Assembly: GCA_001599915.1 (NCBI GenBank)
Contig: BCIG01000020.1
Coordinates: 310,001-374,000 of the forward strand
Source: Symbiotaphrina buchneri
Lineage: Eukaryota > Ascomycota > Symbiotaphrinales > Symbiotaphrinaceae
DNA: 64,000 bases
Direction: 5' to 3'
This document shows positions 18,795-49,956 of the stretch, piece by piece (the first letter of the stretch is position 1; each line of letters opens with the position of its first letter). The position numbers were made by a program, and so were the translations under genes. The notes beneath the pieces were generated by a model that was not told the DNA's origin, ran no database searches, and was given only the letters and a program-made list of their open reading frames with translations.

Positions 18795-21700
18795 CTACTT
18801 CTGCAGCTTCACCATGACATAAGGGATCTCAACGTCCTCCTCCGTCTGGTCCTCTGCTGTCACCTCAAATATGACATTCTTCTGATGTTGAGGGATTGGC
18901 TTCTTGCTCACAGTCTCAACCAGTTGACTCATCCTACCATGGCATTAGTGCGATACGACAGCGACGCTCCAAGATTGGGTACTCACTTCAACGGCATACG
19001 ATCCTTGACCTTGTCCGGCGGGTAGAAACTTGCATAGAGCAAACTCACTCCGGAACTGATCATCGAGACATCCAGTCCCTTGTCTTCGAACCACTGCAAG
19101 AATTCTTTGAGTGTTATGTCGTCAACCTCGAACCGATCCCAGAGCTTATCAATTGTAACGTCTCCATTCTTGCCCTTGTATGTCCCTTTCGGACTAGCGA
19201 TGGGCTCGCTGAACCCAAAAAAGGGCAATGCCAGGTTGACAAATCCGTTCTTGTATTGTTCAATGTCCGTCTTGCCATCGATAATCTTGTACAGCTCTAG
19301 GACAACGAGGCCTGTGACCAAAGCCGTGGTAGTGGCAATGGCAGGGATGATCTTCCCCGCAATGAACTTGGTCCGGTGGCGATCAGCAGGCGTGATGTGA
19401 TAATTCTCGGCGCGCAGATTGCTGGCACAGGTGATAAAGTCAATGTGATGGTTGGAATCGTCGTCTTTTTCAAACTCCACGGGTTCCAGTCGGAAGCCAG
19501 CCAGAGATTGAGGAGGAGGTAAAGATGCAGCGAGTCTCTGCAGTTCTGCTGTATCGTCAAAGCCAGACCCAGCCTGCTGCGCGTTGGGATCTGGCTCGTT
19601 GTCATCCGCTTGGATTTTGACAGTAGGATTAGGCGAGAACTCAGGAACTATCATGCTGTCAAGAACCCCCTTGTACTGTTCCTCCGTGAAGCCTTTGCTA
19701 TTGATTCCATAGTTGAATGCGTGGAGGTTTGCGCCGGCCACCACGAACCCAAAATGCGTGGGATTGTTCACATCAAACTTGAGAGGGTCAGGCGCACGCT
19801 TCGGTCCAGACCAAAAGGGCGCACCACTAGCTGTTGTTGATTCCTTTGGAAAATTGTACAGCAGTTGTTGGATAGCATTGTTATATTGCTTTTCGAACTG
19901 CAGTCTTGCCCAAACAACGCAATCTTCGAAACTGAGAGGCTTGTCGGTGACCAGAAAATCTTTGAGACTTTCCAAAGTCTGTTTCTCGTTCCCCTGCTGT
20001 TTGAGCGTAGTCTCCACAAAATTCGGTTGCGTGAGGTACTGGTTGACGGTCTCTGGAGGACCGACAAAGTAGGAAGAAAATAGATCTCTTGCCCATGCTA
20101 TGGTGTGCTCGATTTTGTTCGGAAAACTCCTCAACGTACACATTGGAAATGACTGTTCTGGAGGATCCTGAGAGCTAGAGTATGACTCTGTGATGTTGGG
20201 CAAGATGACCTGGGTGTTCCCTTTCGTACCCAGGGTTCCACTCTCCAGAAGCGGTTTGCGGAAGAAGACACATCGGCGGTCGACGTACGTCCTTGCGTCC
20301 ACATTGTCGAGCGCATTAGTTACTCCATCAAATTCTTCCCAAAAATCTTCATTGAAGATATCCTCCGTCTCGGGCCCCACTCTATCCCGTAGAGTCACTA
20401 TTTTCCCTTTCAGATCCGGATTCATGGCCTGAACAGCCTCTGCCGCACAGTCACTCTTCAGCTTTCCAACATCTTTCGGCCTGAAAAGAAACTGTCTGTT
20501 GAGATTGCTCTTCTCGATCTGATCCGGATCCGTCACCGTAATCTTGCCTCTGGGGCCCGTTGCAAGGCCAATCATGGCCCAATTCTTCAGCATTTCGCAG
20601 CCAATGGCACCAGTGCCAACGAGGAATTGCTTAACATTGGCAATCTTGTCCTGGAACTGCCTTCCAAAAACTGCAATTTGGCCATCATATCTTGTTCCTA
20701 ATGGTCTGCAAAGCTCTTGAGACCGCTCGGAGTTGGTAGGTAAGGATTCTAAAGAGTCGAAATACATCCACTGCACCAAGGGGTGAAACTTGCCCGACAC
20801 TGCCTTCAACACCTCTTGAGCAGCTAGACCACCGAAGAAGGCAGCCATAGGATTCAGATCACCACGAGCTTGGAAACTCAACTCGGCAATCAGTTTCTCG
20901 TCTAGCTCAATTTCATCCCCGTTTTCTGAGGCGATAGCCTTTGCGTCTTGCAAGACTTCCTGAGCATCAGCTTCCGAGTGAGGTCTCGGGAATTCTCCGC
21001 CGTGGCGTTCTGCAAAAGCGTGCAATGCCTGGAATCCAATGTGCAGTTGTTGTGGCCGGTCGAATTTGGCGAAGTCCGAGATCACAAACTCAGGTTTCTT
21101 CAGCTGGGCTGAGAGAGGCTGGAAATCAATGAATTTCGGCATCTTCACTTGCGTGTAGAGACCACCCCGCTTATACTGGCCAAGGCCCGAGACATCACCA
21201 ATGGAAAAGGTGTAAGGGCCTTTTACCGTAATCTTCCTGGGAGGCGCATTGTTGAGCGCATCCATACCTTCCACTTCGGTAAAGGTGACATAGTCTCCAT
21301 CTTCTAGCCCGTGCCGGGTTTCATCTAACGCAGAAACTGTTCCATCGGCATCGATATCAGCGACAATGCCACTCTTCACCTCCTCCCCTGTCGGGTCGAC
21401 GACAGTGAAGTTTTTCCCGAAATCCGTGAAGATTGTCCCGAATAATCCAAATGTATCCGCTATAACAACGTATATCCCATTTTGATGGCAGAATTCGGAT
21501 ATTGTCAACTGATCCTTCAGGGAGGTGGCAGTCAAGACAACGACCTGGTATTTCTTAAGTTTGTCTAGTTCATCCACCAAGTTTGCAGAAGGATGAACAG
21601 TCACAGGCGTGTAGGAGTTAAGTTCCGCCACTCGTGGTGCTGTGACTTCCGCTCTTGGCTTCCCGACATCTTCGGGATGGAGAAAGAACTGGGAGGATAG

Positions 21701-22045
21701 ATCTGCAATCGATGCAGGCGTAGGATCATATAATGTAAGAGACTTGACGCCTGCGAGTGCGATATTCTTCGCTGGAAAAGAATTTTCAGTCCCGGTCGTC
21801 CATTCTACTCTTGACGGATTGCCTTACCTATCTCCACACCTAGTCCTTTAAGCCCAACGATGAGAACATGTGAAGAACCCATGCGCTTCATAGCCTCATG
21901 GCCCAGCACATACCTATGGTGCTCATTAGAGTAATGACCATGTATGCCTGCCTGGGTCGACTTACAGCTGCCGGCTGTAGAGGGACTCGTCGATGTCACC
22001 ATTATCCAACTGCTCAATCGCTTCATTCGGATTGTCGATCTGCAT
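18795..22045 (-). CDS. UBA1: Ubiquitin-activating enzyme E1 (Uba1)
   Basis: Activates ubiquitin by adenylation and thioester transfer at the top of the ubiquitin cascade, in nucleus and cytosol. I read complement(18795..18933, 18987..21771, 21828..21913, 21966..22045), 1,029 residues against 1,024 in yeast. The inactive adenylation half begins [17 protein letters not shown] and [14 protein letters not shown]. The active half has [18 protein letters not shown] and [20 protein letters not shown]. The catalytic Cys sits in [12 protein letters not shown] at residue 600, the same number as in yeast Uba1. The ubiquitin-fold domain at the C terminus ends [11 protein letters not shown]. The start at 22045 ([20 protein letters not shown]) is the simplest choice; an in-frame ATG at 22081 or a further upstream exon is possible. 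Confidence 0.96.
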
Positions 22046-22725
22046 CTTAGTGTCCTTGACAAAGATTAGCCAACGGTGCATGGTCAACGGATGTTTGCCG
22101 AATCTAACGGCATCAAATGCCACCTCTGTAAGGACGCACATGAGATGTCCTTACCGTCATGGTTCTCTTTTCGGGACGACCCAGGTCCTCGCTGGAAGCT
22201 TTTCTCTTACCCAGCTTGAACGGTCTCGACACTTCAGTATGGGACGAAATGATGGAGTGTAAAGGTTGTATCGAGAGCCAGAGGCAGTCCGATCAGCTCG
22301 CCAAAAGATGACCAGGTAAAGACCGGGGAAGCTGCAGAGGAAAGCAGAAACCTTCAGCCGAGCGGGGTTCTGCTAAAGAAGAGATGCCTGGTGGTAAGCT
22401 GGTGGATAGACCAGGATGAGACTGAAGCTGGCCTACAATGTAGCTTCAGGTCCACGAATAAGGAAGGGTCAACTGAGAGTGTGGGATGGCAAACGTTGGA
22501 CGAGACGGATGGTTTGGGTTTGAAATAGGAGGAGATTAGAGCTCTCGCAATAAGTGTATTACTACTACCGGTATGATGCATGACGGACAACAACCTTCCA
22601 GAGGCAACTAGGCACCTTACCTTAGGTAAGGTAGGTAAGCACGGACGGGCTAAAGTACCTTAGGTAAGGTAAGGGTACTTCAAGCCAGCTCGGCTGGTTC
22701 GGTTACAGCTACCTTCCTAGGTCAA
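22046..22725. other. UBA1 upstream region up to the Helitron insertion
   Basis: 680 bp. At about 22,600-22,680 there is a cluster of short palindromic motifs built from ACCTTAGGTA and AAGGTACCTT. The same motif family recurs in other gene-free stretches of the window. No gene seen. Confidence 0.5.
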
Positions 22726-22741
22726 TCTATAATACTACTAC
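22726..22741 (+). other. Helitron 5' terminus
   Basis: Sequence TCTATAATACTACTAC, immediately after host A at 22725, agrees with the conserved 5'-TC start of Helitrons. Confidence 0.8.
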
Positions 22742-25700
22742 AAAACACCGCCAAGACTTTTAGTTAGATATAGCCGTTTAACTCTTTACAGTTAACTTTC
22801 TTCCCAATTAGGAACAAACTGTGCCGGACTTTTAACAGCCGAAGTTCTGCGCTCTACCTACAGCTGAAACAGCTGTAATCACGCCAAAAATGCTGTGTAC
22901 CAAGCACACCGTGGTATATGACCCTAGATTGCGGCCTAGCTATAGTTGTTCACGTGTTATACCCCCTGGATTGCGCTATATCCATAGCTGTTATAGCTGT
23001 AATTAAACAAAAAGGGTCTTCAGTCAATACAAATCCTTCAAAGGTGTATATGTATATCCCTGGAAAATAATTTTACAAACGTAATCTTGCTAACAACTAC
23101 TTGGTAAACAAGAAAACATGTACAACTGTAACAACTACAAAACCACATTTTCTTCCCTTTAACCTGCCTCTTTTTTCTTCTCTTTATCACATATATTCTG
23201 AGATTTATTCAGTTCTTTCTTTAATTATTACTACTATTCTAATATGTTACAGAATCATAGACATCAACCTCTTGTAAAGGTTGATATGAACGTGGATAGA
23301 CCTGTAACCATACCTGATTCTATCATCATTAAACATCTATGATCCTTTTCAGCTTCTATTATTTTCTTATCTTCTTTACCATGTATGTATACTCCAGCTA
23401 AATAACTGTTTACTATATCATTCAGTATTATTTAAAATACAACATTGTATACTATGTTTACAATAGTTTAATTCTTTTGTTTCCAGTTAATTTATCCTGA
23501 AACACCTTTCTAAGAGCTTAAAGCTGTTGTAAAGAAGGTTACAGTTGATACAGTTCAAACTATAAACATTATAACAACTATATCAGTTAATAACACTGTA
23601 TAAACATCGTTTGACACAGGACCACTTAAGTAACCTGTATCTGTTCCTGATTGTTACTATGATATTTGATTCCAAGTCTTGTTCTTTAACACAACTATTA
23701 ATGTTAAGAGTTTGTTGAATAAAGATAATACATCATTAAACATATCAAACGTATTAAATAAAACCTATAATTCAATTAAAAAGAAACCGTTTTATCTGAC
23801 AGATAATGACCAAGCGTTCAAAACAAACCTTATTCAGAACAATTTATAATCAAGCTACTTAACAACATCATATACACCTAAAGGACCAGGGACATTCAAA
23901 CCAGTTGTCTTTAATCCAAATAGTTATTATCCCTTAGGACCTTTAACTAGATTACTGTTAATACAAGTAAAAATCTAACCTTCTATACATTGAACTGTAG
24001 ATTAAATTCCATCTCTTTAGAAGCTTTTACTGTGTTAGGATAGTTAGGGATAGGTGGATAGCTATTGAATCAAGTAGGAAAATAGATAGGGAAATATACT
24101 ATAAAGGAAACACCGTTATAAAACAATGGGAATAAAGTCTTTGTACAGGTTGTTACATAGAAAAATCACATAGAAAACCATATAAAGAAATCATCTATTT
24201 AAAACAAGAAACAAACATCAGTAAAACAGGTTCTGAATTTACTATCTAACATGCTGATCCTTTATCTTATTATCAAAAAAAGAGCTTTTATTTCCTGGAA
24301 TACAGAACATCAGAAAAACGTTGTTTTATTCTGTTCTACTAGAGTTTAGACCACATCATGTAATGTTAGTACAAAAGCACAAATCATCTTCTGTACCTTT
24401 TGTACCTTCTATACCCTTTTTCCCATTATACTACCTAGCTACAAGCCCAGTATATCACAGATTTTACCCTGTTTTACAGACTGTAATCCAGGACTAATTA
24501 CAGGTTAACATATCGATTTCTTACTGGTTACAAGTTTATACCATGTTATCAGCTTACCTTCAACTGTATCAACCTTTTTAAACACTTTAGATGAAATATA
24601 CAGTTTCTAAGAATCCTTACCTGAGTTACCTACAGTTTCTTATTATCAAAGACTTCAATTTAATGATTTATAACGTTCTTAATCATTATGTCTTATTATT
24701 AAACCTTTGTTTCTTTCTTTCTTTACAACTGTACCCTGTTATATAATCATACCTAGGTTTCCAAGGGCTTTTAATTCAGTAAACAAAGGTATTAATTCAC
24801 AGATTCATTATCTTAAACCTATAGATTAACAATGTTCATATTGTTTTATTCTGTATTATAAACACCAGGGTATACAAAATTAGGGGTCCTGTTGTAAAGA
24901 TAATGATATCCAACTCCTAATGATTTGTAAACTGTCTGAGTATCTATAAAACTTATTTACATTTTAAGAGACTTATGTTTATAAGTTTCATGATAATATT
25001 CATCAATATAACTGTATTCTGGCTTTTACATTCTTTAATTACACTATTGACTTACATTTCTATACTAGTTATGGTCTGAATGTGTTTATAGTTCATAAAG
25101 AACTGTATCATGTACATAGATCATTGTAAACTATCTTAGATAGACCATTACAATATATACAGCTGTTTATTTATAACTCTGTATATATAACCCAAGCTTG
25201 TTATCAATGGAATCTATAATTGAATCTGTATATCATCTACAATTTAACCAACATGTTATATAAGGTTAACCCTTTTATCAACATGTATTAAATTGTAAAT
25301 GAACAAATATATAACTTTACAATTGTAACCCAGAATATTTATATTCTGTTTAATCTATAAATACAGTTTATTCTTAAATATAGTGTTGATTATCATTGTA
25401 AGAATTTGTTGATAACAATAGAAATCACAGCTGTTGTACCTGATATGGACAATATTATCTTTTACAACCAGGAGATCTGTTTTATAAACTGAAACATCTT
25501 TGTTAAAGCATTTTAAACAATCAGTTATAGGTATCCAGTTTATATTCTTCTTTATTATGTTCTCTTATTTCCATATGAAAACCAGGGATTTGATTGGAAT
25601 ATTCTTATTAAAGATCATTAAAAAACTTAAAAGATTACTTGTTTTCAACAATAGGAATATTATCATTACAGGCTATACAATCAGTTTAATTACTTCTTGA

Positions 25701-26098
25701 TGTTCATTTATACTGAATGATTAGAACAACAATATTTGATTGATGTTTAATGTATATATAAATAATTAAAACTGGATTGGTGTTAAAATCACCAGAATAA
25801 CATCCATGCTGATATCTATATTGATATTACAGATGTATTAAATTATAACGATTTTAATCTAAGCTGTCTTAAACAACCTATTATTCTTTTCTTTACTTAT
25901 GTTGACAATCTATGATAAATGATGTAATTGTATCAAGACTCCATAGTAATTGTTCGTTATTTTGGTTGTTTAATGTTCTTTATCACATTTACAATCAACT
26001 TAAAATGGAGAAAGATCCAAGAAGAACTGTTACCTGGCTAAACTGTAGCTGATAACCCTGTTTTAGTTGTAAGGATATTTTATACAAAATAAACTGAG

Positions 26099-26368
26099 TT
26101 GTTACATAATCTGAAAAAGAAACATGTCTTTGGTAAATATGTTGGTTATGTTTGGATAATTAAGTATCAGAAATACAAACTGTTACATATGTATCTGTTT
26201 TTATTCCTTGTTATAACAGATTGTTTTGATACACTTGAATACATTGATAAGATCATATCAACAGAGATACCCAATCGTTCTGATATTGAACTATATCAAA
26301 TTGTAACAACTATAATGTTATATAGTCTGTGTGATATAGGTATACATTCCTTACTATCTTGTATATAA
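26099..26368 (+). pseudogene. Helitron Rep (HUH) domain remnant
   Basis: The reading frame keeps VWIIKYQKYKLLHMYLFLFL, which aligns with the family pattern V-x-E-x-Q-K-R-G-L-P-H-x-H. It then keeps YIDKIISTEIPNRSDIELYQ and IVTTIMLYSLCDIG, matching the segment around D-x-I-x-A-E-I-P and the later M-I-H-G-P-C-G. The second His of the HUH pair reads Tyr, as a C-to-T change would give. The fragment is bounded by stops. Confidence 0.8.
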
Positions 26369-27659
26369 CAAGATTGTCATCAATGTTATCATTGTTAAAA
26401 GGGTTTTTTAAAGACATTATATAATTATATAACCATCAGTGATAATGGTTATCCACTTTACCAATGATGGAATAATAGTTAATATCTATAAGTTATCAAT
26501 TTATCTGGGAACTTTATGTTTAATAACCATTGGATTGTTTCTTATAATCTATATCTTTTACATAAGTATTAAGTATATATTAATGTTAAAGTTTGTATAA
26601 TTGCCAAGGTTGTAAAATATATTTACAAGTATATTTACAAAGGTTCTAACCGGTTTACAATGGAATTACATCAAGATAATATAGTTGTAAACAGCTTGGA
26701 TAAGATTTACAATTATTTACAAGCTTGTTATGTTAAACTGATAAAAGCTGTATAGTATCTTTTTGAGTTTGTAAATCATAAGAAAAATCCTTTTGTTTAT
26801 CCTCTTAGTTATTATCTTCCTGGTTAACAACCTGTATATTTCTAGACAAATAATACAATAGATGAATTACAAACACAAGTAAATATTATATGTTTTATAT
26901 TTATAGTATTCTTTAAGTATAATGTTAAGAATCCAGATGATTGTAACAAGTTCTATCAACAGTTTCCTGAATACTATACCTATAACAAATTTAATTGTAT
27001 ATAAAATATACATAAGGTTAAAGAAAAGTTTATAATTAACTGTATGTATCACTGTATATCTATTGTAGATAAACGTTTTTTCCTATGGTTGTTACTGATC
27101 ATTGTTTATAGATCATAATTATTTAAATACCTATATACTGTTAATGGAATCTGTTACCCAATCTTTCAAGAAGTTTATCTTGTTCTTGGATTACTGGAGA
27201 ATGATTAGAAGTAGATTACATGTTTTAAAAAGGTTGTACTCTTTGTATTTGAATAGATACTATGGACTTTATATACTATGATTCTCTTATATAAAGGTAT
27301 GATTCAGTCTGTCTGTATCTAGAATCAGTTCTAGGATCAACTATGTAATGATCTTTCCTGAAAGCTATAACAACTGTAGATTGATACAGCTGGTTTTCAA
27401 GACTTACATTTTAATTATAGCCTGTATCTGATTTCACAGATCTTTAAAAATACATATAAATCACTTGTAGATTTTGGTTTCCTGACTTTTATCCATAATT
27501 AAACTGATTATAAGAATAATCCCTTGATTCTGAACAAAATAAACTATGATGTTTAGGTTAAGACTATGTTTACAAGAAAATGATATCTACTTTTAAACCC
27601 TGGTTAAAAGTTTTATTTTTACTGTATTACAACGATAACAACTGTACAACCATTTCATA

Positions 27660-28911
27660 TGTTATTCTTTTTGAACAATGTTACAGGTATAAGGAAAACC
27701 TTCTTTTACAAGGTACTTTGTAATCATTTTTAAAGACAAGGAAAGATTGTTATCTATGTTGTTTCTTCTAGGATCACAATCTTATTTCTTTCTAAAGGTT
27801 GTACAACCTATTCATGGTTTAAGATTCCTTTGGATCTTATTAACAACAACCTGATTTGTTTTACAACCAATAGTTAGACTATAGAATTCATATATTGTAC
27901 TTTCCTTATTATCTAGGATAAAGTACCTATATAAGACAAGAGATGTTTTAAAACTACAGATTTAACCCTTTGTTTTATTCTTGATAAGAACGAATTCTTT
28001 AATGGTATTCCAATGATTTTTAAAGATAACTTTGTTTAAATTCTTTCAATTATTGTACATGGAAACCAAAGGGTTATTGTACAAGTTTATTTTCAGAAGT
28101 CCATGTTATAGTTGTATTGTGAAAAACTACAGTTATCTTAGAATTACAGATTATAAACAACAGGTTAAACAAATAATTATTACATTAGATATAGTAACTT
28201 TTCTATAATCTAAATCTTTATAACTGTATTCTAGTTATAAAAGGTATCCAGTCTTTTCAATTACTTGTATGTTTTTATGAATATATATTCTCTCATGATA
28301 TACTTGATCATATGTTAGAATACTTAGAGTTCTTTATTGATTGATTAATTCTTAGTATATAAAATAACTCAGTTAATAAGTTCAATGATTTTCTTCTAAA
28401 CCAGATACCAGGTAAAGTCTTTACATATTATTCTGTAAATATAATAGATGTTCTGAATGATATAAATACAGTAGATATATTACTTTCTGAATTTCTTGTG
28501 ATAATCAATGTTGTTATCATTCTTCCTGTGTAATTACGGCTTAAAGTTAATGTACCTGTTATGTTACTATGTAACCTTTATTTGTAAGAAGGTCTTTATA
28601 ATGATACCTGGTTTTTAATCACTAGGTTGCAAACCAGATATATTAAGGCCTGTATCCTTAAGAATGAGTTTAATGATTATTTTAAGGTTTTACCCTGTAT
28701 ACCGTTAAATACAAAGGAGAATGATTTCCTCTCTGTTCTTATACACAGACAATTTTCAATCTGTCTTTGTTTTGTTATAACTGTTAACAAGTCCCAGGGT
28801 CAATTATTCAATATAGTTGATATTGATTTACAGCTAGGAACATTTGTACACGGTCAGATATATGTTGTATTCTTATATGTTATTATTGTTACAGGTTTAT
28901 CTGTTTTGTAG
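27660..28911 (+). pseudogene. Helitron Pif1-like helicase remnant
   Basis: Helicase motifs appear in order on the + strand. A decayed Walker A (FFLNNVTGIRKTFFYK) lies at about 27,666-27,713. The following segment VVSSRITILFLSKGCTTYSW leads to FKIPLDL at about 27,755-27,840. NEFFNGIPMIFKDNF with VHGNQRVIVQ lies at about 27,990-28,085. The C-terminal motif RQFSICLCFVITVNKSQGQ with DLQLGTFVHGQIYV lies at about 28,750-28,870. In the last stretch K-x-Q-G-Q and H-G-Q are still intact. The order and spacing identify the Helitron RepHel protein. Confidence 0.85.
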
Positions 28912-30434
28912 AATGAGAATCAGGAGTAAAAGACTGATAATATTGTTTACCCTAAGGTTTTATTACATCTATGATCTTAAACAACCAGGTAACAAAGACT
29001 ATATACTGTATAGTACAGGGCTAGTAATTGTTTTGTATATAACATTTATTAATATAAAAGTTTACATGTTGTTTTTGGTTCTTTCTAATAAGATATCTTT
29101 TTATATTAACTGTAATTGTTAACCGTTTCTTTATAGTTACTAAAATTTTTTTAACAATAATACAAGATTTATTCTTGGATTTGATTCAAAATACAACTGT
29201 AAAAAAGAACAGTAGACAGAATACTGTTTTCTTAAAGCTGTTATCTGTAACAGGATAAGTACAGCTGTAACAACTAATTCTTATTAACCTTATGTTGTTT
29301 GATTTTTAAACAACTGTTTATAACAGAATGAATACAGTTGTAACAACTATTTCTTTTTGATCTTATGTTCTTTGATCTTATCATGAAGTTTAGCCAGTTT
29401 AAAACATTTGTTGTTGATTTATCTTAGTAACTTGTTCATATCTGTTTAAATCACTTAAGGTTTATATTCTGTAGTCTTGGGTTTCTTGACAACAAATGAA
29501 TCATCTGTATCAGTTTTAAGGGAATGTTTTTGTTTGTTTGATATAAAGTATGTAGTTTTCTTATTAAAAGCTGTAAAAAATGTTTAGTATTGTTTTATAA
29601 GATATTATAATTGTAACTGTAACAATTGTATATACCCTGTATAACAGTATATAAACTGTAACAGGTTTCTGTAAAACTAAAGTAACAGTTTGTATATGAT
29701 CTCTTAAGAGTATCAGATAATGTTATACATCAGGTATAAGGATCATAAACCTTGATACAATGGTTGTAAGGTTTCAAAACAGCTGTACCAGTTGATTGTA
29801 TTATAAAGGCCTTTATATTGACCAGCTGTTTTTTGAACCTATGTAACTTGGTAACCTGTTCAGGATCTTGATTCAGTTTTCCTCTCTTTTAAGGATTACA
29901 GATGATAGATAGCTTTGTAACATGGTTAAGTACTTTATTCAATAAGAATGTATCCTTTAATCCTTGAAGAATGAATCCTGTCTTTTTGTACTATTATAAC
30001 ATTAGTAAAAACCGTAACAGAAGTAAGCTTTACATACTTTATCATAAGATATCTTAACATGTTTTACAGCTATAAGGTTTATAATCCCTTTTTAATCTTT
30101 AATCCTTCTTGTAAATCAGCTAGCTGGTATGTTGTATTTGATTTCTTTATCTGTATCTATCATAGCCTTTAATAAATAACTAGATACAGGATGTTTTAAT
30201 TGAAGTTCATTTATAAGTAAGTTTATATTGTTTACATTAATCATTGATATAATACATGTAACTTTTCTCTATGGTTTACAGGTTAATATTGATTTATAAT
30301 CATTTGATTCATTTGATTCATTGCTTCTGTTTATAGAAACAGGATTGTTATTGTCTAAGACTTTATCTATGATATAATATACAACTGTTTTCTCTTTGTC
30401 TTTATATCAGTTACCTTTTGTTAACATTATAATC

Positions 30435-30565
30435 AATGTAACTAGTGTAGTTATACTTTGCTTAGATGTAATCAATATAACTAGTACAGTTATACCTTGT
30501 TTAAATATAGTTAACATAGTTGATATAGTTGTTCCTTGTTTAGATACAGTTAACATAGTTACAGG
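30435..30565. repeat. 39-bp minisatellite, about 3.4 copies
   Basis: Units at 30435-30473, 30474-30512 and 30513-30551 plus a partial fourth share the pattern AA(C/T)(A/G)TA(A/G)(C/T)TAG... ending in TAGATAYAGTT-like sequence. It lies inside the Helitron, 3' of the helicase. Confidence 0.7.
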
Positions 30566-30862
30566 TTACTTTGTTAATAGCTCTGATATCTTTAAACATG
30601 GTTTTATATATTCAAAAAAGATCTTAAAAATGTAATCATGTATATCCTACGATAATAATTAACATTATTCAATGTTTATTTAGTAACATATGTAAAAACA
30701 TACTATTGTCAATTGTTTCAACCTGATTCAATCCTGATTATAAATTGTTTATATGATTTAGTTAATTTGTTACAATTGTTTCAATTGTATATAACCCTTT
30801 ACTGTTATTTATAGTCTCTTTAGATTACTATTATTAAATAGGTATAATAGCTATTGTTTAAC

Positions 30863-31005
30863 CATAATAGGTTATTAAAACATAATAGATTGTTAAGATA
30901 CAATAGGTTATTAAATTGTAATAGATTATTGAGATACAATAGGTTATTAAAACACAATAGATTGTTGATGTGTAACAGATTCTTAAGATATAATAAACTG
31001 TGTAT
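30863..31005. repeat. 18-bp minisatellite, about 7-8 copies, with 36-bp higher order
   Basis: Consecutive 18-bp units contain AATAGRTTRTTAARA. Alternate units resemble each other more closely (GGTTATTAAAA versus GATTGTTAAGA), giving a 36-bp higher-order period. It lies inside the Helitron near its 3' end. Confidence 0.75.
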
Positions 31006-31690
31006 TCTGTTATGTATTTATAATAGTTATTATTAAATATTCTATAACCTGGATTTCCTTACTATCTTGTATTTTACTTTGTTACAGTTAGAAACTTTTT
31101 ATAACTATAAAGAATATATATACAGGAGGTCTTTTATTCTTAACATCTTTATTATCTTTCTCCAGGTCAATACTCATGTATTCAGTCTATATCAACTAAA
31201 TTAGTTATGTTCTATTATTACAGTTATTACAACTACAAATACAATGTTCATCATACAGGTAAGGAATTTGATTGTACTCTATAACCGTTTATTGATGTCG
31301 TAAAATCAATATATAAGGAGATAAGATAGAAGTAAGGATGTTTGCTTACATCATCAAACAGACGGTTCAGGTTGTTGATGTTGGATGACCCTGGGTCCGT
31401 CATTTTTCATGTCTTGATACCTAATCCTCATTAGTTTAGTTATCAAGATCATCAAAATACCATCTAAAATCATTATATTTTGATGAAAATCACGTTCTGA
31501 TCAATGAAATGATGATAAAACTTACCTATCTGGATCACTAAAGTAGTTTCTTATTGTTAACTAACCTTCTGTTGGTGGTAAAGTACGTGGTAAGATAAGG
31601 ATGTAGGAGAGAAAGTAAGGAAAGGTTTGATGGGTTTGTATACGTTATTGACTAGGAACTATTCCTGATTAGGATTCAATAGTCACATGA

Positions 31691-31725
31691 CCACCCTCGA
31701 GTAATCGAGGGTGGCATAAATCTAG
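31691..31725 (+). other. Helitron 3' terminal hairpin and CTRR end
   Basis: Stem CCACCCTCGA (31691-31700), loop GTAA, stem TCGAGGGTGG (31705-31714), then CATAAAT and CTAG (31722-31725), followed by host T. The structure and its distance from the end are diagnostic for Helitrons. Confidence 0.88.
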
Positions 31726-32217
31726 TTCACATAATCAAAGTTGTATCAGCCTTTATGGTAGTAGGTGTGTCAGATGCTGTCAAATGTATGATATGGCTGC
31801 AGCCAGGATGCCAGGCGCAAAGAGGGCATGGGTGTACGAAGGGGCTAGCCTGGCACCCGACTACTCTCAGTTACCAGTAGACCTTTTCAGAGTCCTGCGG
31901 TGCACATGACATTGATGCTTAAAGTGATTTGATATCGCCAAGCAATTGTCGCGAACCCCACGAATTTAGGAGTTAGACGCGCCTCTGCTGGTGGTGTTCG
32001 CCGCGTTACACGACAACTGCCTACCTACCTAAGGTACCTTATGGATTGCTTCTCTGACTTGACGTCCTAGCCCACAACACGGGTCAGATGCACGATCTAG
32101 ACGCCGGTCATAATCACAAGAATTGTATCATGGGGCATTGGTGAGAACAGTATCGAAAACAGCCCCTGGCTGCTTCACGTCGATTCCTGCGATTGGACCA
32201 TTGCAGCACAATTCAAG
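31726..32217. other. Intergenic region upstream of the GCP4 gene
   Basis: 492 bp of ordinary composition between the Helitron 3' end and the GCP4 start. It contains one CTACCTACCTAAGGTACCTT cluster near 32,018-32,040. No gene seen. Confidence 0.5.
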
Positions 32218-34632
32218 ATGCTACACGAAATCTTCCTCTGTCTTTCCGGCCATAATTCGACCCTTCTTTCAGCTTCAACTAGCCCTGAAACGGGTTCTCC
32301 TTTTCCAGGAAATAAGCTGCTATCACCACCAGAGCAAGCTCTGCTGGGGTCTATTGCACGTCTGAGCCGACTGCATCGCGACATATCCGCTCGTGCGACA
32401 CGGATAACAACATCCCATCCCTCTGCTGTATGCAAGGCGGTCTCGACAGCCATTCTGTCTACGTATCTCGGACAGTATCAGCGGAAGATCCTAGAGGTGG
32501 AAAGGAAGATTCTTCAAAATGACGCAGACTTGGTCGGGACTTTGGGCATCGTCCCTCTTTCCGCCGTGGTCAGAGAGTTCGACACCTGGATGAGACGTAT
32601 GGAATGGTTTGCGCAATTGACAGATTTCATGTTGCCTGACCACGAAGCTGATGGGAGCACACACTCGCGGCAGAAAGTCGCGCCTACTGGCCACTTATGC
32701 GAAGGTGCTGCAATCATAAATAGGCTAAGGGATGAGGCGCGTACTGGGTATCCTGATATCGAAAAGGTTGTGAATCACCTGACTAAGGTGGCCGAAATGG
32801 CATGGTTGCGGCAATTGTCAAGTTGGGTCCTATACGGGAAGCTGCCAGAGTTTGGAGCGGACGACTTTTTCATACAGAAGTTTAGCCGGAGGGCGGAAGA
32901 TGATGCTGGTGACAGGTCAACCTTCGCGATTCAGACCACGCTTCTGCCCGTTTTCGTGACAGCATCGACCGCTTCTTCAATTCTCTTTATTGGGCGTTCG
33001 CTGAACCTCATCCGGACACGAGCGGCCCAATTGATGTCCACTGGTGGACTTGGGGTGGCCTCATCTCCAGAGTTGGCTCTTTTACCAACTCATCTGCGCC
33101 AGTTATCTATGTTGGTCCCTCCAATCTCAGCCTCTTCGCTTTCAAACGCTGTCGCAGCCATCCGATTATCTCTATCACAGAATACTCTTCAGCAGCTACT
33201 ACCTTTGCCCAAGATCATTCAGGTACTAGAATTGCTTCGAAACTTCTTTCTCTTAGGTCGAGGAGAATTTGCGATCGCTTTGATTACCCAGGCGGACGAA
33301 GCTATACAATTCCGCCGTCCCCGGCCGTCCCTGCGAGAGGATTCGCGAAAACCGCTTCCGGGTCTGGACGCCGTCGTATTGAAGGACGGCGAGATCCTAG
33401 CTGTCCTTGCTCGTACATGGGCTGTTTTATCATTCATGCAGAAAGGTGAAGACGTCATCGACGATGAACTTGACCTCGCTCGCGACCTTATCAATCTCGA
33501 ACGTTCCAAGGCCAACGACGAGACTATGGCCGCGTTCAATGGATCGGATACTGAGGAATCAAATTACGAATATCTTGAAACTTCCTTCAAAGACCTGCTT
33601 CTTCCTGTCTCAACCAGTCTAACCCTTAGTATACCGTCTCCGCTGGACCTGTTTCTTACCTCTACGGATGCACAGACTTATTCTACGATCCATGCATACT
33701 TACTCAGTATTCGCCGCGGCCACCACAGATTATCTCACATGTGGCGCAATACACCCATCCGGCGAGATCATCCGGCTCCACCGGGACCGCCGTACAGCAA
33801 TACACCCCTGGGGCAAGCAACTTTGACAAAAAGGAGATTAAGATCTCATGGCCGCAATCTGTGGATGCGGCCGATTTGGGCAACTAGCAGCGCAGCGCTC
33901 TTCTTGTTGGGCGAGCTAGGCGCCTATCTTCAGCAAGACGTTGTTGAAGCCTCTTGGGAGGAGTTTCGATCATGGATTGAACAACCTCAGAAGCAATCAT
34001 CGAGGCCTCCCACATCTGCTTCTACGATGTCCGGCCTCTCGATCCCGGATTCAGCTTTTCCTTCTGCAAGCGGTGACATGACAGGGTCAACTTCGGCTTT
34101 TGTCCAAGAGCGTCCTCCTCATGATCCTGAAACGCTGTCTCGTGCCCACAGCTCCTATCTGGCTGCTCTAGCACAAGCGATCTTGCTCACAGACTTCGTA
34201 TTTACGAATACGCTACGGAAATTTCTTCAAAACCTCGACCTTTACCTATCCCTAATCGGGCGACTACAGTCCGTTCAACACAATATTGATCTTGAATTAG
34301 ATGATGGTGTAGTCGATGCATTCACCAATTTCGAAAGGGAGGAAGTAGATGTCAAGCAGCAGTTGCTGGGCGCACGCGGAGACGTCGAGCTCGGCATGCA
34401 CAGGTTGGTGACACGGCTGAAAGAATTAGACAGGGACACCACACGGGGAGCCGGATGGGCCAGACGCCGACTACATACCGCTTTTAGCTCCGGGACACCG
34501 AATACGGCTCTGGAGTTTGCTCCAGGAAAGCCAGCAGGCATCGATAGGTTGCTGATGAAGTTGGACTATGAACGTTTAGCTTATTCGGCGCTTGAAGAGA
34601 AAAATGCCGTGAGGGAGATTTCCCCAGCATAA
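32218..34632 (+). CDS. Gamma-tubulin complex component (GCP4 type)
   Basis: Spc97/Spc98-family subunit of the gamma-tubulin ring complex, which nucleates microtubules at spindle pole bodies. A single exon encodes 804 residues from the ATG at 32218, whose opening MLHEIFLCLSGHNSTLL is the classic GCP4 N terminus (M-L-H-E-L/I-L-x-x-L-x-G). The GRIP1 region continues with LSPPEQALLGSIARLSRLHR and ILQNDADLVGTLGIVPLSAV. The C-terminal GRIP2 region holds LLSIRRGHHRLSHMW and LLTDFVFTNTLRKFLQNLDL. A disordered Ser/Pro insert sits at about residues 580-640. Length agrees with fungal GCP4. The fragment LGRGEFAIALITQADE matches the L-G-R-G-E-L/F motif of the family. Confidence 0.92.
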   Translation: MLHEIFLCLSGHNSTLLSASTSPETGSPFPGNKLLSPPEQALLGSIARLSRLHRDISARATRITTSHPSAVCKAVSTAILSTYLGQYQRKILEVERKILQNDADLVGTLGIVPLSAVVREFDTWMRRMEWFAQLTDFMLPDHEADGSTHSRQKVAPTGHLCEGAAIINRLRDEARTGYPDIEKVVNHLTKVAEMAWLRQLSSWVLYGKLPEFGADDFFIQKFSRRAEDDAGDRSTFAIQTTLLPVFVTASTASSILFIGRSLNLIRTRAAQLMSTGGLGVASSPELALLPTHLRQLSMLVPPISASSLSNAVAAIRLSLSQNTLQQLLPLPKIIQVLELLRNFFLLGRGEFAIALITQADEAIQFRRPRPSLREDSRKPLPGLDAVVLKDGEILAVLARTWAVLSFMQKGEDVIDDELDLARDLINLERSKANDETMAAFNGSDTEESNYEYLETSFKDLLLPVSTSLTLSIPSPLDLFLTSTDAQTYSTIHAYLLSIRRGHHRLSHMWRNTPIRRDHPAPPGPPYSNTPLGQATLTKRRLRSHGRNLWMRPIWATSSAALFLLGELGAYLQQDVVEASWEEFRSWIEQPQKQSSRPPTSASTMSGLSIPDSAFPSASGDMTGSTSAFVQERPPHDPETLSRAHSSYLAALAQAILLTDFVFTNTLRKFLQNLDLYLSLIGRLQSVQHNIDLELDDGVVDAFTNFEREEVDVKQQLLGARGDVELGMHRLVTRLKELDRDTTRGAGWARRRLHTAFSSGTPNTALEFAPGKPAGIDRLLMKLDYERLAYSALEEKNAVREISPA

Positions 34633-38569: not shown

Positions 38570-38690
38570 GTTGTTTCTTGATGCTACGGTAGAAGCCGAT
38601 GGAGCTATTTGTTGGCGTATAGGGTCACAGAGGGGCAGGGATGTGGGAGAAGCAAGAGGGGCGAGGGACGAGAGATCGGTCATATATATA

Positions 38691-39023
38691 ATAGAGAGGT
38701 TTCTCAACGAATTATTCGATGTCGTTCTCTAGTAAATTTTAGCGTAGTTTGACATCGACTAGTTGCAAGTCGATCCCGATCGAATAATTGAGGTTTCTCT
38801 ACAACTTGTACGAGCCAAGCCGCTTGATACTAATACAGACCTACGGGCGATCGAATATTGAATATTCGATTAATCGAATAATCGCAAGTCGATCTCTTAG
38901 AGATTGACTTGACGCTATACTGAATCGAATAGGTGGTGTGGAGCAGGTGGGTCAAAAAGTGGGCGCGGAATCAGTTTTTCCGGTTTGAACGACATCGAAT
39001 AATTCGTTGAGAAACCTCTCTAT
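38691..39023. mobile_element. 333-bp MITE with 37-bp perfect inverted repeats (TA target)
   Basis: Arms at 38691-38727 and 38987-39023 are perfect reverse complements over 37 bp, beginning ATAGAGAGGTTTCTCAACGA. TA dinucleotides flank both ends (38689-38690 and 39024-39025). There is no coding capacity. The interior carries further short self-complementary runs built on TCGAATATTCGA. TA target, short length and TIRs fit a Tc1/mariner-type MITE. It lies 122 bp upstream of the quinone oxidoreductase start codon. Confidence 0.85.
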
Positions 39024-42000
39024 TATTCTTCCACCTGTCGAAAGCAACAGGACATCTATGGTTTCTTACAAACCAGCCGGGCAGTGACAGCACTATGATA
39101 ATGGCTCACGCAATCGCCGTGCCGTCGGGCTTCCTCTATGCATTTGTAACGAGAATCCTCATTATTAATGACTCCGTTGCTGGTTGAAGGGGCTTCATTT
39201 GGATTGTCCTGACATGCCTCGTTCCCCGCAAGGTCTAGTTGCCGGGCGCCTTGCAGTTGCCGAGCGGCTTCAGATGCCGAGCACGAGCTGCTGCCGGACC
39301 TCTAGGAGCTGTTCTCGAGTCCTCGACCACTCCACGATTCACATCACAGCAAGATCATGACTGGTGAAAGCAGTCGCCGTCGCCGTTCGACTGATTTCCA
39401 AGAAGCTTAAGGACGACTTAATCTCAGGAGCCCAGCAGCAACCATTCGTAGGAACAGGGCAAGCGCGCGGGCGGAGCTGGGCGGAGCTTGGCGGAGTTTA
39501 AATGTTTTAAGACCGCCATGATCCTCCAGGGGTTGCCAGGTGAAGACTCGAAGTGTAGGAACGCAGTAGTGATAAAGCAGCCTGCTCGCCTGCATTACAA
39601 TTTATTATTGCTTACACTTTCGCAAGAACTCGGTGAGTTGCTGATTGACCAGTCCTTGTATTGTAAGACTCAGGGGGGTGAGGTGGGCTCATGTCTGTGC
39701 TGTACGATACTTTTGCAGAGACATCTTTGAATCCTTTCCCATCACCTAGTGGGCAACCAGCAGCAGTTCTAGGTTGTCAGATGGCGATGGCTCGACAATA
39801 ATGCCTCATGCGAGCGGAGGTGGATAGGCGTGCTGTGGAACGTTACAGACAGACAGCAGCTGAACTTCGCCCTTCGACCGAACCAGCGAACAATCGACAG
39901 ATTGAAGTATCGTTGTGATTGGCCCGGTCAGTCGGCAGCCATGACCACGAACCGGTGAATGGACGTAGACAGTATTTGGCCGATAGAAATTGCGAAATCG
40001 GAGGTGCATGATCTAGGAAAGGAATACGGGACCGTAAAGAAGCGAGCAAGATACGAGCAAGATACGAGCAGAGCCATCTGCAGCCTCTATTTTCGAGGCC
40101 TCCGCCAGGAGAAACAGATAATATGGAGAGAAGCCCTCATCTTCTACGGCACTGTAGGAAGCTACGGTCGTCTGGAGTGATCTGGGCCGGTTGTACCGGA
40201 GGGACATGGCCAGGTCACCTGCCCGCCGCCCTTGCGGATGGCTTAAGCCACAAAGGCAATAAATACAGGTCGCCAAAATCAACGAGTGCCTCTCTTGCTT
40301 GTATGCCGAATTAGGCTTTTCTATTTTCATTCACATTACTTATAGAATCTCGTTTGATTTCTTTTCAATTACATCTTATGCACTATATATTTTAATTGGA
40401 CTTATTTTTTATCGAAAATCACTCATTAACATATTTACGGGAGTAGCAAGATGCTTCAACAACTACGAGATATTCGTCGATGCCGCTCGTTAAGGTGCGA
40501 TAGTACTTTGTGCTTCTGGCGTGGAGCAGAGTGAGGACACCAGCCTGCTGCCACGTTTCTTGGGTGTTGCTCCAGTTCCTGATCGACGGACGCCGATAGG
40601 CGCGGCAGACAACCGTGCTCAGATCATCATTCTGCAACGGCTACGGTAGGTACTGCAGCTGAGCAGAGCTTGTCTTTACGAAGCCGCGCTCTTCGAAAAG
40701 AGAGCCTCACCACAGCGGCACAGCGGCGCAGCCAATGGGCCTTGGACATGCTGCAACGAGGAGCGATGTTACTGTAGGTACCCAGCGAATGCGGGGAACG
40801 GCACGCATGGACCGTGGGTGGGATTGTCGTCCGATGCATGGCCGTGGGAACTGGTCGAAATTTCCCCGCTCCGTGGCTTGCTTTGAACCAAAAGCCCTTG
40901 GGCGGTGAAGCAAGGTGAGATGAGCGGTGATCGCAGGAAATCGGTCCGACAATGGACGGGCACGGTGAATGGTAGAATAATCGGTATGGAGCCCTGGAGA
41001 AAGGAGGGATTGCGGGGTCTAGCAGCTAGCTTGCGCATGAAGGGAACGAAAAAGGAGCAATGACCGTCACACAATTACTCCCCCTGGCAGATGCTTGAAA
41101 GCTGCATTGCTCAATTCTTTTCGTGGTGCTCGGTAAGATGTTGAGAGGTAACACGATGATCCTTGTCGGTCATCCCGTCATCGTTAAACGAGTGAACTCA
41201 ATAAGGTAATAATGTACCTCCTACCTCCTACCTCCTACCTCCTACCTTAACCCTCTCTCACTTGCCTTCCATAAGGTGAAGTACCTTACATTACGTGCCC
41301 GTGCAGGACATCCGTAAGGTACCTTGCCTTACCTTTCTTTTCCTCAAGGTACCTCGGGCTTCATAATCCCCAACTACCGAAAGTGCTTCCCTTGTACTCC
41401 GTCACTGATACCTTACTGGAAGATACCTTCCCTTCCTGAAGGTACCTGATCTCTGACCTAATCACGTTATTCATTTCGACTCCGCACTCGACTCGGCGAG
41501 AAAGCACAGATTTCATGATGATAATATTAATAAATAATTGTACGAGGAAATTAAAAGATCACTTTCGCAGGCAGTACCACAGCAGCTGAGGTATATGCTT
41601 CTCGTCCCCCAGCTGCTGCAGTGTGCGCGCATCTCATGATTATTATCTTGCCCCCTCCACCTGCCCCAGCTTTTCTCGAAAAAGCCTTATGCGACTAGCG
41701 GCTGCCCACGGCTTTAGAGGTACCGTGCCTTAGCTTTTCTCACACCGTTCCCTCTCCGTCACCTGAGGTAACTACCGCGACCATATACATATGTCTGGAT
41801 CGACCTGAAGCGTAGCTGGGCGTCCTTTTCCGTTTTCATTTCCGCTTTCCATCTGTCGACGATCCATTCTTCTCGGACCTGCAGAGCAGCAATACTCCGG
41901 CGAGGCCGGGCTCCAACCGGACACAATCTTGACAGTTTCCTAGGGACGCATACCATCTTGCCCGTCCGTTTTGTCTGTAGCTGTTGCGTTCACACCGAGA

Positions 42001-42043
42001 ACGCCCCGCTACCCGACATACGTCCCATGGGTCGCGCGCTGCA
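39024..42043. other. 3-kb gene-free region upstream of xlnR
   Basis: No credible gene on either strand. An AT-rich patch lies at about 40,310-40,440. From about 41,200 to 41,760 there is a dense cluster of ACCTT/AAGGT motifs, many as AAGGTACCT palindromes, followed by a CT-rich stretch before the xlnR start. A long upstream region would suit a regulatory gene, but that is inference. Confidence 0.5.
41214..41248. repeat. Heptanucleotide tandem repeat (CTACCTC)n, five copies
   Basis: Five 7-bp units run head to tail; the first begins GTACCTC and the last ends CTACCTT. They lie inside the ACCTT-motif cluster upstream of xlnR. Confidence 0.8.
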
Positions 42044-45000
42044 ATGAGCGGAATGATATCGGCCGCCTATCCTCCTCCAAATGCGCCGCCTTCACTGCCG
42101 CCCACTCCTAATATGATGTCGCACGGGGTCTATCTGCAGCCGCAAAACTTGGCTCCATCGCCCTTGGATACCCTTGCGCAGGGCTCACAGTACGTGCAGC
42201 AATTGCAGCATCGATCCGCGCAGACTCACTACTTGACTTCCCCGACGAAAAGCCCGACCAAGAACAGGCATCATCCATATGGGAACGGGTTCGCGGGCTC
42301 GCCGAGTGCCGCTCGTAAGGCCGCTGGCGCTGAGGCTGGACATGGCTCGGAGACGAGTGGTGGCACAAATGTCAGAAGGAGGATAAGCAGAGCGTGTGAT
42401 CAATGCAACCAGCTGCGCACCAAATGCGACGGTAAGAATCCATGTGCGCATTGCGTAGGTAAGGAAAGCTGGAGTGATTTTACGACCATGTGTTCCTTGC
42501 ATCTAACTCCGGCTTTAGAGTTTGGCCTGCAGTGCGAATACGTCAGAGAGAGGAAGAAGCGAGGCAAAGCCTCTCGAAAAGATCTCGTTCAGCGTGAAGC
42601 CGCTGCTGCGGCCGCATTGACGGGTGGGAACAATGCGGGCCCAGGCAGTGTGCTCCCGCCCCATGATACAATATCAGCGTCAACCGTCCACGGCAACGCG
42701 CGGACCAACGGCCAAACGTCCGTCAACGACCTCCCACCTCCGCCTCTGCCAACTGGGCGGTCTCTTAGTGTTGGTAGCAGTATCCTGGGAAGCAATGGCT
42801 TATTGAATGATGTCGGTGCGATTGGCCGGACAGGTAGTCTAGGGAACCTGCACGAGATCTCCAACAGTGCCCCGATCAATCATCACCACCATCAGCAGTT
42901 ATCCAGCCAGCAGGAACACCTGATTGGCGAGAAGCCAAGCCACCAACAACAACGACAGGGAGCAGCTGAGAATCCCATCGGTTTAGGGCTGGCTGCACTC
43001 GGGCCTGTGCAGGATTTTGATGCTTCGGGACCTGTGCCTGGACCGGGGGTTCCCAACGGGATGCCATCACACTTACTTCCCAACAACTCGGGCAATCAAG
43101 CAGCCATGACCTCAATAAATCCCAGCCATATCACTGGTTACGCCGACAGGTCCTTCCCCATGCCGACCCCATCGAATCGTTTAACCCAAGTCCCTGGAAT
43201 GCCCTTCGGTACTGGAGAGTCCCCGATGACTGCTTGGCTCGGGGCTTCTCCCACGGCTGGGTCACCTGGCTGGCTCTCCTTACCGTCACCTTCAGCATCT
43301 GTTTATGATCAGCAGCAACAACAGTACAACAATAGCCCGGCCCAAGGCCTTCGATACCCTGTCCTACGTCCATTGTTACCATACATCTCCCAGATTCTGC
43401 CGGTTTCGTTAGCATGTGATCTGCTGGATTTATATTTTGCGAGTTCATCTTCGGCTTATATACGACCATTATCTCCATATCTCCTCGGATATGTGTTTCG
43501 AAAGCGCTCCTTCCTAAGTACGACTAATCCTCGTCCCTGCAGCTTAGCACTACTAGCCAGTATGCTCTGGGTAGGAGCTCAGACCAGTGAAGCTGCTTTC
43601 CTCACGTCTCCGCCTTCAGCCAGAGGAAGGGTATGTCAGAAGCTGCTTGAGCTTACTGTTGGTCTCCTGAAGCCTCTTATACATGGTCCTTCAAATGGTG
43701 AGGCCTTTCCGAATCCTGCCGGGACTGTGATGAATGGGGTTGCATTAGGCGGCTTGGGCGTCGCGAACCAGACCTCTGGGGATCAGCTGAACGGTCCCGA
43801 GGGAGCAGTAGGCGCAAGCGGCGCCCTCGATGACGTCGCCACTTATATGCACCTGGCCACCGTCGTCTCCGCCAGCGAGTACAAGGCCGCGAGTCTTAGA
43901 TGGTGGAACTGTGCTTGGACACTAGCTCGAGAACTGAAGCTCAATCGAGAGCTTCCCCCAAACCCCGCGCCTCCAGCGGAGACCAGAAAAGGGGGAGAAG
44001 GACATCAAGAGCTTGATGCAGAGGGCGAGGCTGATATTGATATGAACATAGCAGGAGCTGCTCAACAGTCCAATGGACTTGATGCCGCAAACTCTCCCGG
44101 TTTCGTAACAGAAGAGGAAAGAGAGGAAAGACGGAGAATATGGTGGCTACTCTACACCGTGGATCGCCATCTGGCTCTGTGTTACAACAGGCCACTATTC
44201 CTGCTTGACATGGAGTGTGATGGCTTACTACAACCAATGGATGACAAGGACTGGCAGGCAGGCAATTTCACGCGCGACACTTCCATATCAGCTACTGGCG
44301 AACCTTTGCACTACAGAAGGAGAGGGCCCACTTTCGAGTGTACTGGCCACAGTATATTCGGCTACTTCCTGCCTTTGATGACAATGCTAGGGGAGATTGT
44401 GGACCTGCACCATGCTCGCAATCATCCGCGCTTCGGCCTTGGATTTCGCAGTGCTAATGAATGGGATGACCAAGCCGCCGAAATCACTCGCCAACTGGAA
44501 GCTTATGGTCGCAGCCTAAGGGAATTTGAGGCTCGCCAGACGCTGAAGCTGCAAGACAATGCGGACAACAACCATGGTGCGGAGAATCCCGATGGAGGGT
44601 CTCCATCTGTGCGGTCCGCCGGTAGTGCTGGTTCTCGAATGACTGAGTCAATCATGCAGACCAAGATTGTCGTGGCCTATGGAACCCATGTAATGCACGT
44701 CCTGCATATCCTTCTCACCGGTAAATGGGATCCGATATCGCTGCTCGACGACAACGATCTTTGGATATCCTCACAGTCGTTTATCTCCGCTACTGGCCAT
44801 GCTGTGTCGGCAGCCGAAGCCATTGATGACATTCTCGACTATGATCCTGATCTCAGCTTTATGCCGTTCTTTTTCGGCATCTACCTCCTTCAGGGAAGCT
44901 TTCTCCTTCTGCTGATCGCGGACAAACTGCAAGGCGAGGCAAGTCCGAGCGTGGTGAAGGCTTGTGAAACCATTGTACGAGCCCATGAAGTATGTGTGGT

Positions 45001-45221
45001 CACGTTGAACACGGAATACCAGGTAAGGTTGCAATCACTGTTTCTCTCTATCGCAGACGTTGACGCTCTTGGTGAAGAGAAATTTCCGTAAGGTTATGCG
45101 CTCTGCTTTGGCACAAGTCCGCGGCCGCATCCCCGAAGACTTTGGCGAGCAACAACTACGACGTCGTGAAGTACTAGCGTTGTATCGATGGACAGGTGAT
45201 GGGACAGGACTCGCCCTGTAA
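42044..45221 (+). CDS. xlnR: Xylanolytic transcriptional activator XlnR (Zn2Cys6)
   Basis: Binuclear zinc-cluster activator of xylanase, cellulase and pentose-catabolic genes. I read join(42044..42458, 42519..45022, 45078..45221), 1,020 residues. The DNA-binding domain [20 protein letters not shown] continues to CAHC and [19 protein letters not shown]; its six Cys are residues 118, 121, 128, 134, 137 and 144. Both introns have CTAAC- or TTGAC-like branch sites. The fungal_trans regulatory region shows [51 protein letters not shown] and [20 protein letters not shown]. The C terminus [18 protein letters not shown] then TGDGTGLAL is the XlnR signature. The longer N terminus (Pro/Ser-rich) distinguishes it slightly from Aspergillus niger XlnR. 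Galacturonate-family paralogues are excluded by the C-terminal identity. Confidence 0.96.
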
Positions 45222-46344: not shown

Positions 46345-46417
46345 GGCAGTTGATGTTCTGGATGGATGACTTGTTGAATGATTGACAATGCACAACGTAC
46401 AATGTACGGAAGCAATA

Positions 46418-46531
46418 CCGGCGTGAGCAAAACCACCTTAACTTTTCGCTTGCGCGAACCACATCATTCGCACCCTCCTAGTAAATTTGTATGGGAGCAC
46501 AAAACGCGTAAGTTCTCCACGAATAACCCGT
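46418..46531 (+). repeat. Left terminal inverted repeat of mariner-like element
   Basis: Begins CCGGCGTGAGCAAAACCACC and is the reverse complement of 49957-50070 except at the third base (G here, T in the other arm). Confidence 0.92.
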
Positions 46532-49874: not shown

Positions 49875-49956
49875 GAAGTGGCTAGGAAAGCTCTTTTTCG
49901 TATAGCTTCAAAAATGCCTGATTTGGATTCAAAAACAGCTTTAACGGACCGGCCTT

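Follow-up and report, generated by a model that had tools for sequence, protein, structure and literature searches.

The stretch of DNA analysed here, 64,000 nt of contig BCIG01000020.1 of Symbiotaphrina buchneri (positions 310,001 to 374,000; the window), contains a 9,000-bp Helitron-like element, a second transposon of the DDE type and several host genes, whose coordinates are collected in Table 1. An earlier note, made from the letters of this DNA alone, had described the first element as a Helitron with both ends placed to the base and with an interior decayed by repeat-induced point mutation (RIP). Our analysis makes it very probable that one complete Helitron1, once autonomous and inserted at A|T, occupies 22726-31725, and that it is now dead and carries C-to-T decay on both strands. 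The Helitron joins a known kind of element, and the atypical point is the decay context that it has in common with the second transposon.

Table 1. Features of the Helitron, its neighbours and the second transposon (coordinates are those of the window)
Feature	Coordinates	Strand	Basis or remark
Helitron1-type element, whole	22726-31725	+	ends read directly, transposase homology between
5′ terminus TCTATAATACTACTAC	22726-22741	+	follows host A (22725); inferred from single copy
5′ terminal stretch outside decayed segment	22726-22976	+	GC about 0.43; ACAGCTGTAAC-like motifs common to body
Segment with C-to-T/G-to-A type decay	22977-31642		likelihood segmentation, log-likelihood ratio (LLR) 2354
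Degenerate RepHel transposase, main frame	24824-28162	+	aligned to Helraiser residues 122-1223, phmmer E 1.3e-89
Rep domain, Pfam Helitron_like_N (PF14214)	25658-26194	+	E 3.2e-28, frame from 22727
HUH motif position, second His replaced	26186-26194	+	Helraiser alignment
Two-tyrosine motif YIYKY, both Tyr kept	26618-26632	+	faces Helraiser Y727/Y731, counted from printed chain positions
PIF1-like helicase domain (PF05970)	27659-28204	+	E 1.7e-27, frame from 22727
C-terminal helicase part, other frame (from 22726)	28342-28887	+	Helraiser 1280-1460, E 9.5e-21
Pif1_2B	28489-28629	+	E 1.2e-4; 8.2e-6 when searched as fragment
3′ subterminal hairpin	31691-31714	+	10 bp perfect, 4-nt loop
CTAG 3′ terminus	31722-31725	+	precedes host T (31726)
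E1-type ubiquitin-activating enzyme, left neighbour	18983-21823	-	
Gamma-tubulin complex component, right neighbour	32101-34632	+	
Fungal Zn2-Cys6 factor, further right	41981-45091		
Second transposon, DDE_3 and weak HTH_23	46416-50072	-	E 2.7e-9 (DDE_3), E 0.0028 (HTH_23)

Termini of the Helitron

The termini were examined by direct reading. The element runs from TC (22726-22727), after a host A at 22725, to CTAG, before a host T at 31726, and its length is 9,000 bp. The hairpin CCACCCTCGA-GTAA-TCGAGGGTGG is paired at 10 of 10 positions (arms 31691-31700 and 31705-31714) and is separated from the element end by 11 nt. The ends lie precisely at the positions given in the earlier note. Both strands of the window were then scanned for CTRR-T preceded within 22 nt by a perfect stem of 8 bp or more. 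A stem of at least 9 bp with CTRR-T was found at a single place, which is the 3′ end of the Helitron, and lowering the cut-off to at least 8 bp added one place, on the minus strand at 22632, where an 8-bp stem lies within a local palindromic repeat. In 40 Markov-simulated windows, the mean count of chance stems per window was 1.275 for 8 bp, 0.325 for 9 bp and 0.075 for 10 bp; those with at least 7 G/C in the arm numbered 2 over all 40 windows, both of 8 bp and none of 9-10 bp. Because a single stem was found and simulated stems of this kind are rare, the 3′ end lies well beyond chance, and its position is secure and well supported.

The claim that both ends had been placed to the base stood for the 3′ end, while the 5′ end at 22726, placed from one copy, is plausible and probable. 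Several points weigh against this placement. A single copy was seen; a TC dinucleotide by itself is weak evidence for a 5′ end, and A|TC sites occur at three positions within 22600-23000 (22726, 22879 and 22981). The decay border sits 251 bp inside the proposed end, and the true end could be further in. Moreover, a ACAGCTGTAAC-like motif of the element, which was picked after the element's repeats had been inspected, became less specific when 2 mismatches were allowed (33 of 52 places in the Helitron).

In another reading, the Helitron would start at about 22977-22981, where the decay segmentation begins (22977) and an A|TC site is also present (22981), with 22726-22976 being host DNA or an older element; 22726-22990 has a GC content of 0.43 and is less decayed than the body (-0.285 versus 0.281 per base). 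We consider such a start quite unlikely. With at most 1 mismatch, the window contained 8 ACAGCTGTAAC-like motifs, of which 7 lie inside the Helitron (22860, 22869, 22990, 23122, 29261, 29334 and 29779), on both sides of 22977-22981, and one lies at 49935. Because the motifs at 22860 and 22869 recur in the body, 22726-22976 is tied to it. TpA was also over-represented in 22726-22990 (1.35, compared with 0.69 and 0.73 in the flanks). Furthermore, the DDE transposon has an inner decay border as well, and its ends are fixed independently by inverted repeats. Because the ends of that transposon are also undecayed, an inner decay border alone does not indicate an element border.

A similarity search found no second Helitron copy in the window; the same self-search gave an internal 59-bp repeat in the Helitron, a 49-bp match to 48208-48254 (E 0.003) and two palindromes, one at 22615-22674 and one at 26169-26208. 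Short words from the element were also looked for in viral contigs. The 5′ 16-mer had 22 exact matches there, which were uninspected and without a control and were judged to be about usual for a short AT-rich word, and a 32-mer containing the 3′ hairpin had 0 matches. A protein scan with the Rep region returned 47 pattern matches with 0 confirmed. Rfam at gathering scores gave 0 matches in the window, and a literature search found 0 papers that have both Helitron and a word beginning TCTATA.

Transposase remnants and class of the Helitron

Translations of the element, with stops read as X, were searched against Pfam. A Rep-like sequence precedes a Pif1-like sequence on the plus strand, and this order, proposed in the earlier note, was recovered with PF14214, PF05970 and the Helraiser alignments. 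When the main frame was compared with solved structures, the single match at E ≤0.01 was Helraiser (7lcc, residues 122-1223 of 1496). The second-frame match to Helraiser 1280-1460 was the best of 20 matches at E ≤0.1. The Helraiser matches in two frames therefore indicate that a nearly complete RepHel transposase was once present. The main frame contains 53 stops in 1112 codons (24824-28160), compared with 65 to 123 in the other five frames, and the second-frame helicase part (28342-28887) contains 3 in 181 codons. Between about 28.16 and 28.34 kb the reading frame switches, through an indel or an intron. Judged from the stops in both frames, the frame switch and the loss of the HUH pair, the element is now dead. 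Its identification as a Helitron was upheld by the homology to a known transposase and by canonical ends that lie in the correct orientation.

The non-transposase parts of the element gave few matches. Plus-strand fragments of 22990-24900 had no Pfam match, and the minus strand of the Helitron had one weak Pfam match, DUF3716. This match (29664-29810, opposite to the transposase) had E 0.0027 in the whole frame; searched as a fragment (29.5-30.0 kb), it reached E 1.6e-4 and 22.0 bits (cut-off 22), together with a sub-threshold LEDGF match (E 0.031). The DUF3716 stretch is possibly a captured gene fragment. An 18-bp tandem repeat was observed at 30853-30995, where a 71-nt family shows 5 register copies at a spacing of 18.

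The element was then compared with known Helitrons. Helraiser starts with 5′-TC, finishes with CTAG-3′, is flanked by A and T and carries a palindrome that lies 11 nt from its 3′ end (PMC4778049). As described in the available text of that paper, the present element resembles Helraiser/Helibat1, a bat Helitron1, in its TC start, CTAG end, A|T insertion and lack of inverted termini, and also in the 11-nt hairpin spacing and the order of Rep followed by a superfamily 1 helicase. Because the TC/CTAG ends, the 11-nt spacing and the Rep and helicase homology match Helraiser, 22726-31725 was filed as Helitron1-type, a formerly autonomous element that is now dead. It differs from Helraiser in being dead, in its fungal host, in having about 2.1 kb upstream and 2.8 kb downstream of the aligned protein, and in sequence, with 27% identity over the part of the alignment that was counted (173 of 630 aligned residues).

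According to the available text of PMC5148889, most fungal and Pezizomycotina Helitrons identified group with Helitron2 and have asymmetric terminal inverted repeats. This speaks against a Helitron1 and for a Helitron2/Helentron-type element in which TC and CTAG are coincidental, and the protein match cannot tell the two types apart because Helraiser, a Helitron1, was the sole chain matched by the main frame at E ≤0.01. The ends, on the other hand, are informative. No Helitron2-type inverted termini appeared when the first 300 bp were compared with the last 300 bp in reverse complement (the best match was 13 nt at E 1.6), the stem of at least 9 bp with CTRR-T is unique in the window, and the flanks are A|T. 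Because the ends and spacing are Helraiser-like and inverted termini were not found, the end structure is that of Helitron1, and a Helitron2/Helentron-type element is highly improbable.

HELPO1 and HELPO2 of Pleurotus ostreatus are by description among the closest systems, with the difference that the host is a basidiomycete. FoHeli1-5 of Fusarium oxysporum are likewise fungal RepHel elements, with one group of about 9 to 11 kb; they differ in their asymmetric terminal inverted repeats, no such repeats having been found here, and FoHeli1/2 have a TNAT target, as given in the accessible part of PMC5148889. The present element adds a well-delimited canonical Helitron1 example from a probable filamentous ascomycete, a group in which that survey, in the same part, reports mainly Helitron2-type elements.

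The homology and the matching ends suggest how the element may have moved. The Rep HUH/two-tyrosine nuclease would nick the TC end, as in Helraiser, and the Pif1-like helicase would unwind the DNA 5′ to 3′, with one strand peeling off. The 3′ hairpin would signal termination, leading to the cut at CTAG and the formation of a single-strand circle. The insertion lies at an A|T site in the intergenic region that separates the divergently transcribed E1-like (left) and gamma-tubulin complex (right) genes.

Decay of the Helitron and its sequence context

The decayed segments of the window were 22977-31642, 46900-49547, 50597-51004 (LLR 97) and 59447-59559 (LLR 30), which correspond to the two transposons plus two stretches, the last two, not known as repeats. 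At the 5′ end of the Helitron 251 bp, and at its 3′ end 83 bp, are not part of the decayed segment. These ends had intermediate scores of -0.285 (22726-22990) and -0.182 (31601-31725) per base, compared with 0.281 in the body and -0.644 in the flank; the DDE transposon ends scored like flank (-0.632 and -0.650 per base). In both transposons the centre is heavily decayed, and the decayed segment stops short of the terminal stretches (22726-22976, 31643-31725, 46416-46899 and 49548-50072). The segment 50597-51004 is an AT-rich stretch upstream of a hexokinase-like gene that was flagged by its base content.

The GC content of the Helitron body (23000-31450) was 0.267, versus 0.518 and 0.529 in the flanks. 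The composite RIP index exceeded 0 in 13 of 17 500-bp intervals of 23001-31500 (range -0.46 to 0.41); the five intervals of 20001-22500 had values of -0.49 to -1.40, and in the DDE body (47001-49500) the index lay between 0.15 and 0.62. Relative to expectation, CpA was 1.13 and TpA 1.02 in the Helitron body (flanks, CpA 1.12 and 1.10, TpA 0.69 and 0.73), and CpG was 0.18 and GpC 0.38. From flank to body, C/(C+T) fell from 0.46 to 0.05 before G, from 0.63 to 0.29 before A, from 0.53 to 0.30 before T and from 0.47 to 0.31 before C. C with a G neighbour on either side was nearly gone (retention 0.02-0.18), and retention in other contexts was 0.26-0.45.

In Neurospora-type RIP, CpA is the preferred target, and TpA/ApT and the composite index are raised. 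In the Helitron the index was above that of the flanks, yet CpG was hardest hit and CpA was not below expectation. The term RIP-decayed is therefore apt in part: loss of C and G, in-frame stops, the lost catalytic His and the composite index above the flanks fit C-to-T decay, whereas the CpG loss, the GpC depletion and the retained CpA differ from a plain CpA signature. Most stops do not lie opposite Helraiser Q/W/R: 5 of 31 did so (16%), versus 9.8% of all residues, in a count that covered blocks 1 to 7 of the 10 alignment blocks printed. Because 5/31 is weak and Helraiser is distant (27% identity), the residues that the stops face say little in favour of RIP. CpG preference alone has a precedent, because in Trichoderma reesei RIP affects CpA about equally to CpG (PMC5496416, available text). 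These results support the view that the Helitron decay is RIP-like but atypical.

The AT-richness might instead reflect a native AT-rich element, slow heterochromatic mutation, or deamination of methyl-C without repeat-sensing. The composite index is weakly positive (at most 0.41) and negative in 4 of the 17 intervals, the remaining CpA (1.13) is not below expectation while CpG and GpC are depleted, and nothing in the present data shows a repeat-sensing step itself. We nevertheless regard these sources as unlikely, given that the index lies well above the flanks, that the loss of C was not confined to CpG but extended to CpA, CpC and CpT, that 53 in-frame stops in 1112 codons accompany a lost catalytic residue, and that the same decay context is found in the unrelated DDE transposon. 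Judged from the composition, C-to-T decay would have struck both strands, mainly within 22977-31642. Its agent would most likely be RIP or a methylation-linked process with CpG preference and an unusually wide context.

The context was examined at two-base spacing. C..G was enriched in both elements (1.70 in the Helitron, 1.87 in the DDE transposon), and C..C and G..G were depleted (0.53 and 0.42 in the Helitron; 0.27 and 0.21 in the DDE transposon); for G..C, depletion was seen in the Helitron alone (0.59, compared with 0.95 in the DDE body). C was lost beside G, with C or G at -2, or with C at +2, and in both transposons it was best kept in A-N-C-N-G. Logistic models of C survival were fitted with the +1 base alone or with positions -2 to +2, using the bodies 23000-31450 (Helitron) and 46950-49450 (DDE). 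The Helitron-trained model applied to the DDE element gave an area under the receiver operating characteristic curve (AUC) of 0.57 with +1 and 0.78 with -2 to +2, and the DDE-trained model applied to the Helitron gave 0.57 and 0.73. Flank-to-flank controls gave 0.56-0.57 and 0.58-0.59, and the Helitron model on the right flank gave 0.53. When fitted over -4 to +4, the coefficients of the two elements had a correlation of 0.93. The DDE-trained model performed evenly on the 5′ non-coding, coding and 3′ parts of the Helitron taken separately (AUC 0.72-0.75). The AT-rich 50650-50980 showed no clear fit to the transposon context (AUC 0.55), being short and noisy; as a guide to such noise, seven stretches of 225-400 sites gave AUC 0.54 to 0.64, and host DNA directly left of the Helitron gave 0.63.

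Simpler sources of these patterns were tried. Nearest-neighbour mutation as the source of the two-base effect was unsupported in 6 of 6 simulations (4 distinct host stretches). These neighbour-only simulations, mutated to the same GC content, reproduced the CpG/GpC depletion and gave C..G of 0.84-0.97 and C..C/G..G of 0.91-1.06. Local strand-biased mutation was rejected for the CpG/GpC depletion, as in the Helitron body G..C and C..G were not steadily depleted past about 7 bases, with values of 0.85-1.17 over distances of 8-100.

Because the AUC rose across elements and neighbour-only simulations failed, the decay context appears wider than the usual dinucleotides. Both elements thus look like targets of C-to-T decay with a wide context, as read from composition rather than observed substitutions. 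Transposons in this fungus may be destroyed by a C-to-T mutator whose context spans about five bases instead of two and which largely spares their terminal stretches, a proposal we make tentatively and hold to be somewhat doubtful. In the available portions of the literature on RIP sequence preference, RIP is scored mostly by dinucleotides (CpA, CpG, CpT), with TpCpG in one case (PMC4352252), and no wide RIP context was found there. Wider words have been counted before, because PMC12543289, in its available text, counts short words; the 10 broadly enriched ones are AT-rich tetramers, read as CpA-type RIP. The decay signature may matter more than the element, which is heavily decayed yet weakly scored by dinucleotide RIP indices. 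If the five-base context were true genome-wide, it would give a lead on which sequences the responsible enzyme prefers. For the fungal methyltransferase DIM2, this preference is left open in the available text of PMC11315935.

Genomic surroundings and the second transposon

The long reading frames of both neighbour genes are uninterrupted by the Helitron. Together with the Zn2-Cys6 factor, these genes point to a fungal host, probably a filamentous ascomycete. The terminal inverted repeats of the DDE transposon are 171-174 bp long and 91% alike (46416-46589 and 49902-50072), and this transposon is decayed in 46900-49547 only. Palindromic ACCTTAGGTAAGGT-type repeats were observed in host DNA directly left of the insertion (22615-22674), with a 77% inverted match over 60 bp. 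Moreover, a perfect 40-bp inverted repeat is present at 38688-38727 and 38987-39026, with its copies about 260 bp apart.

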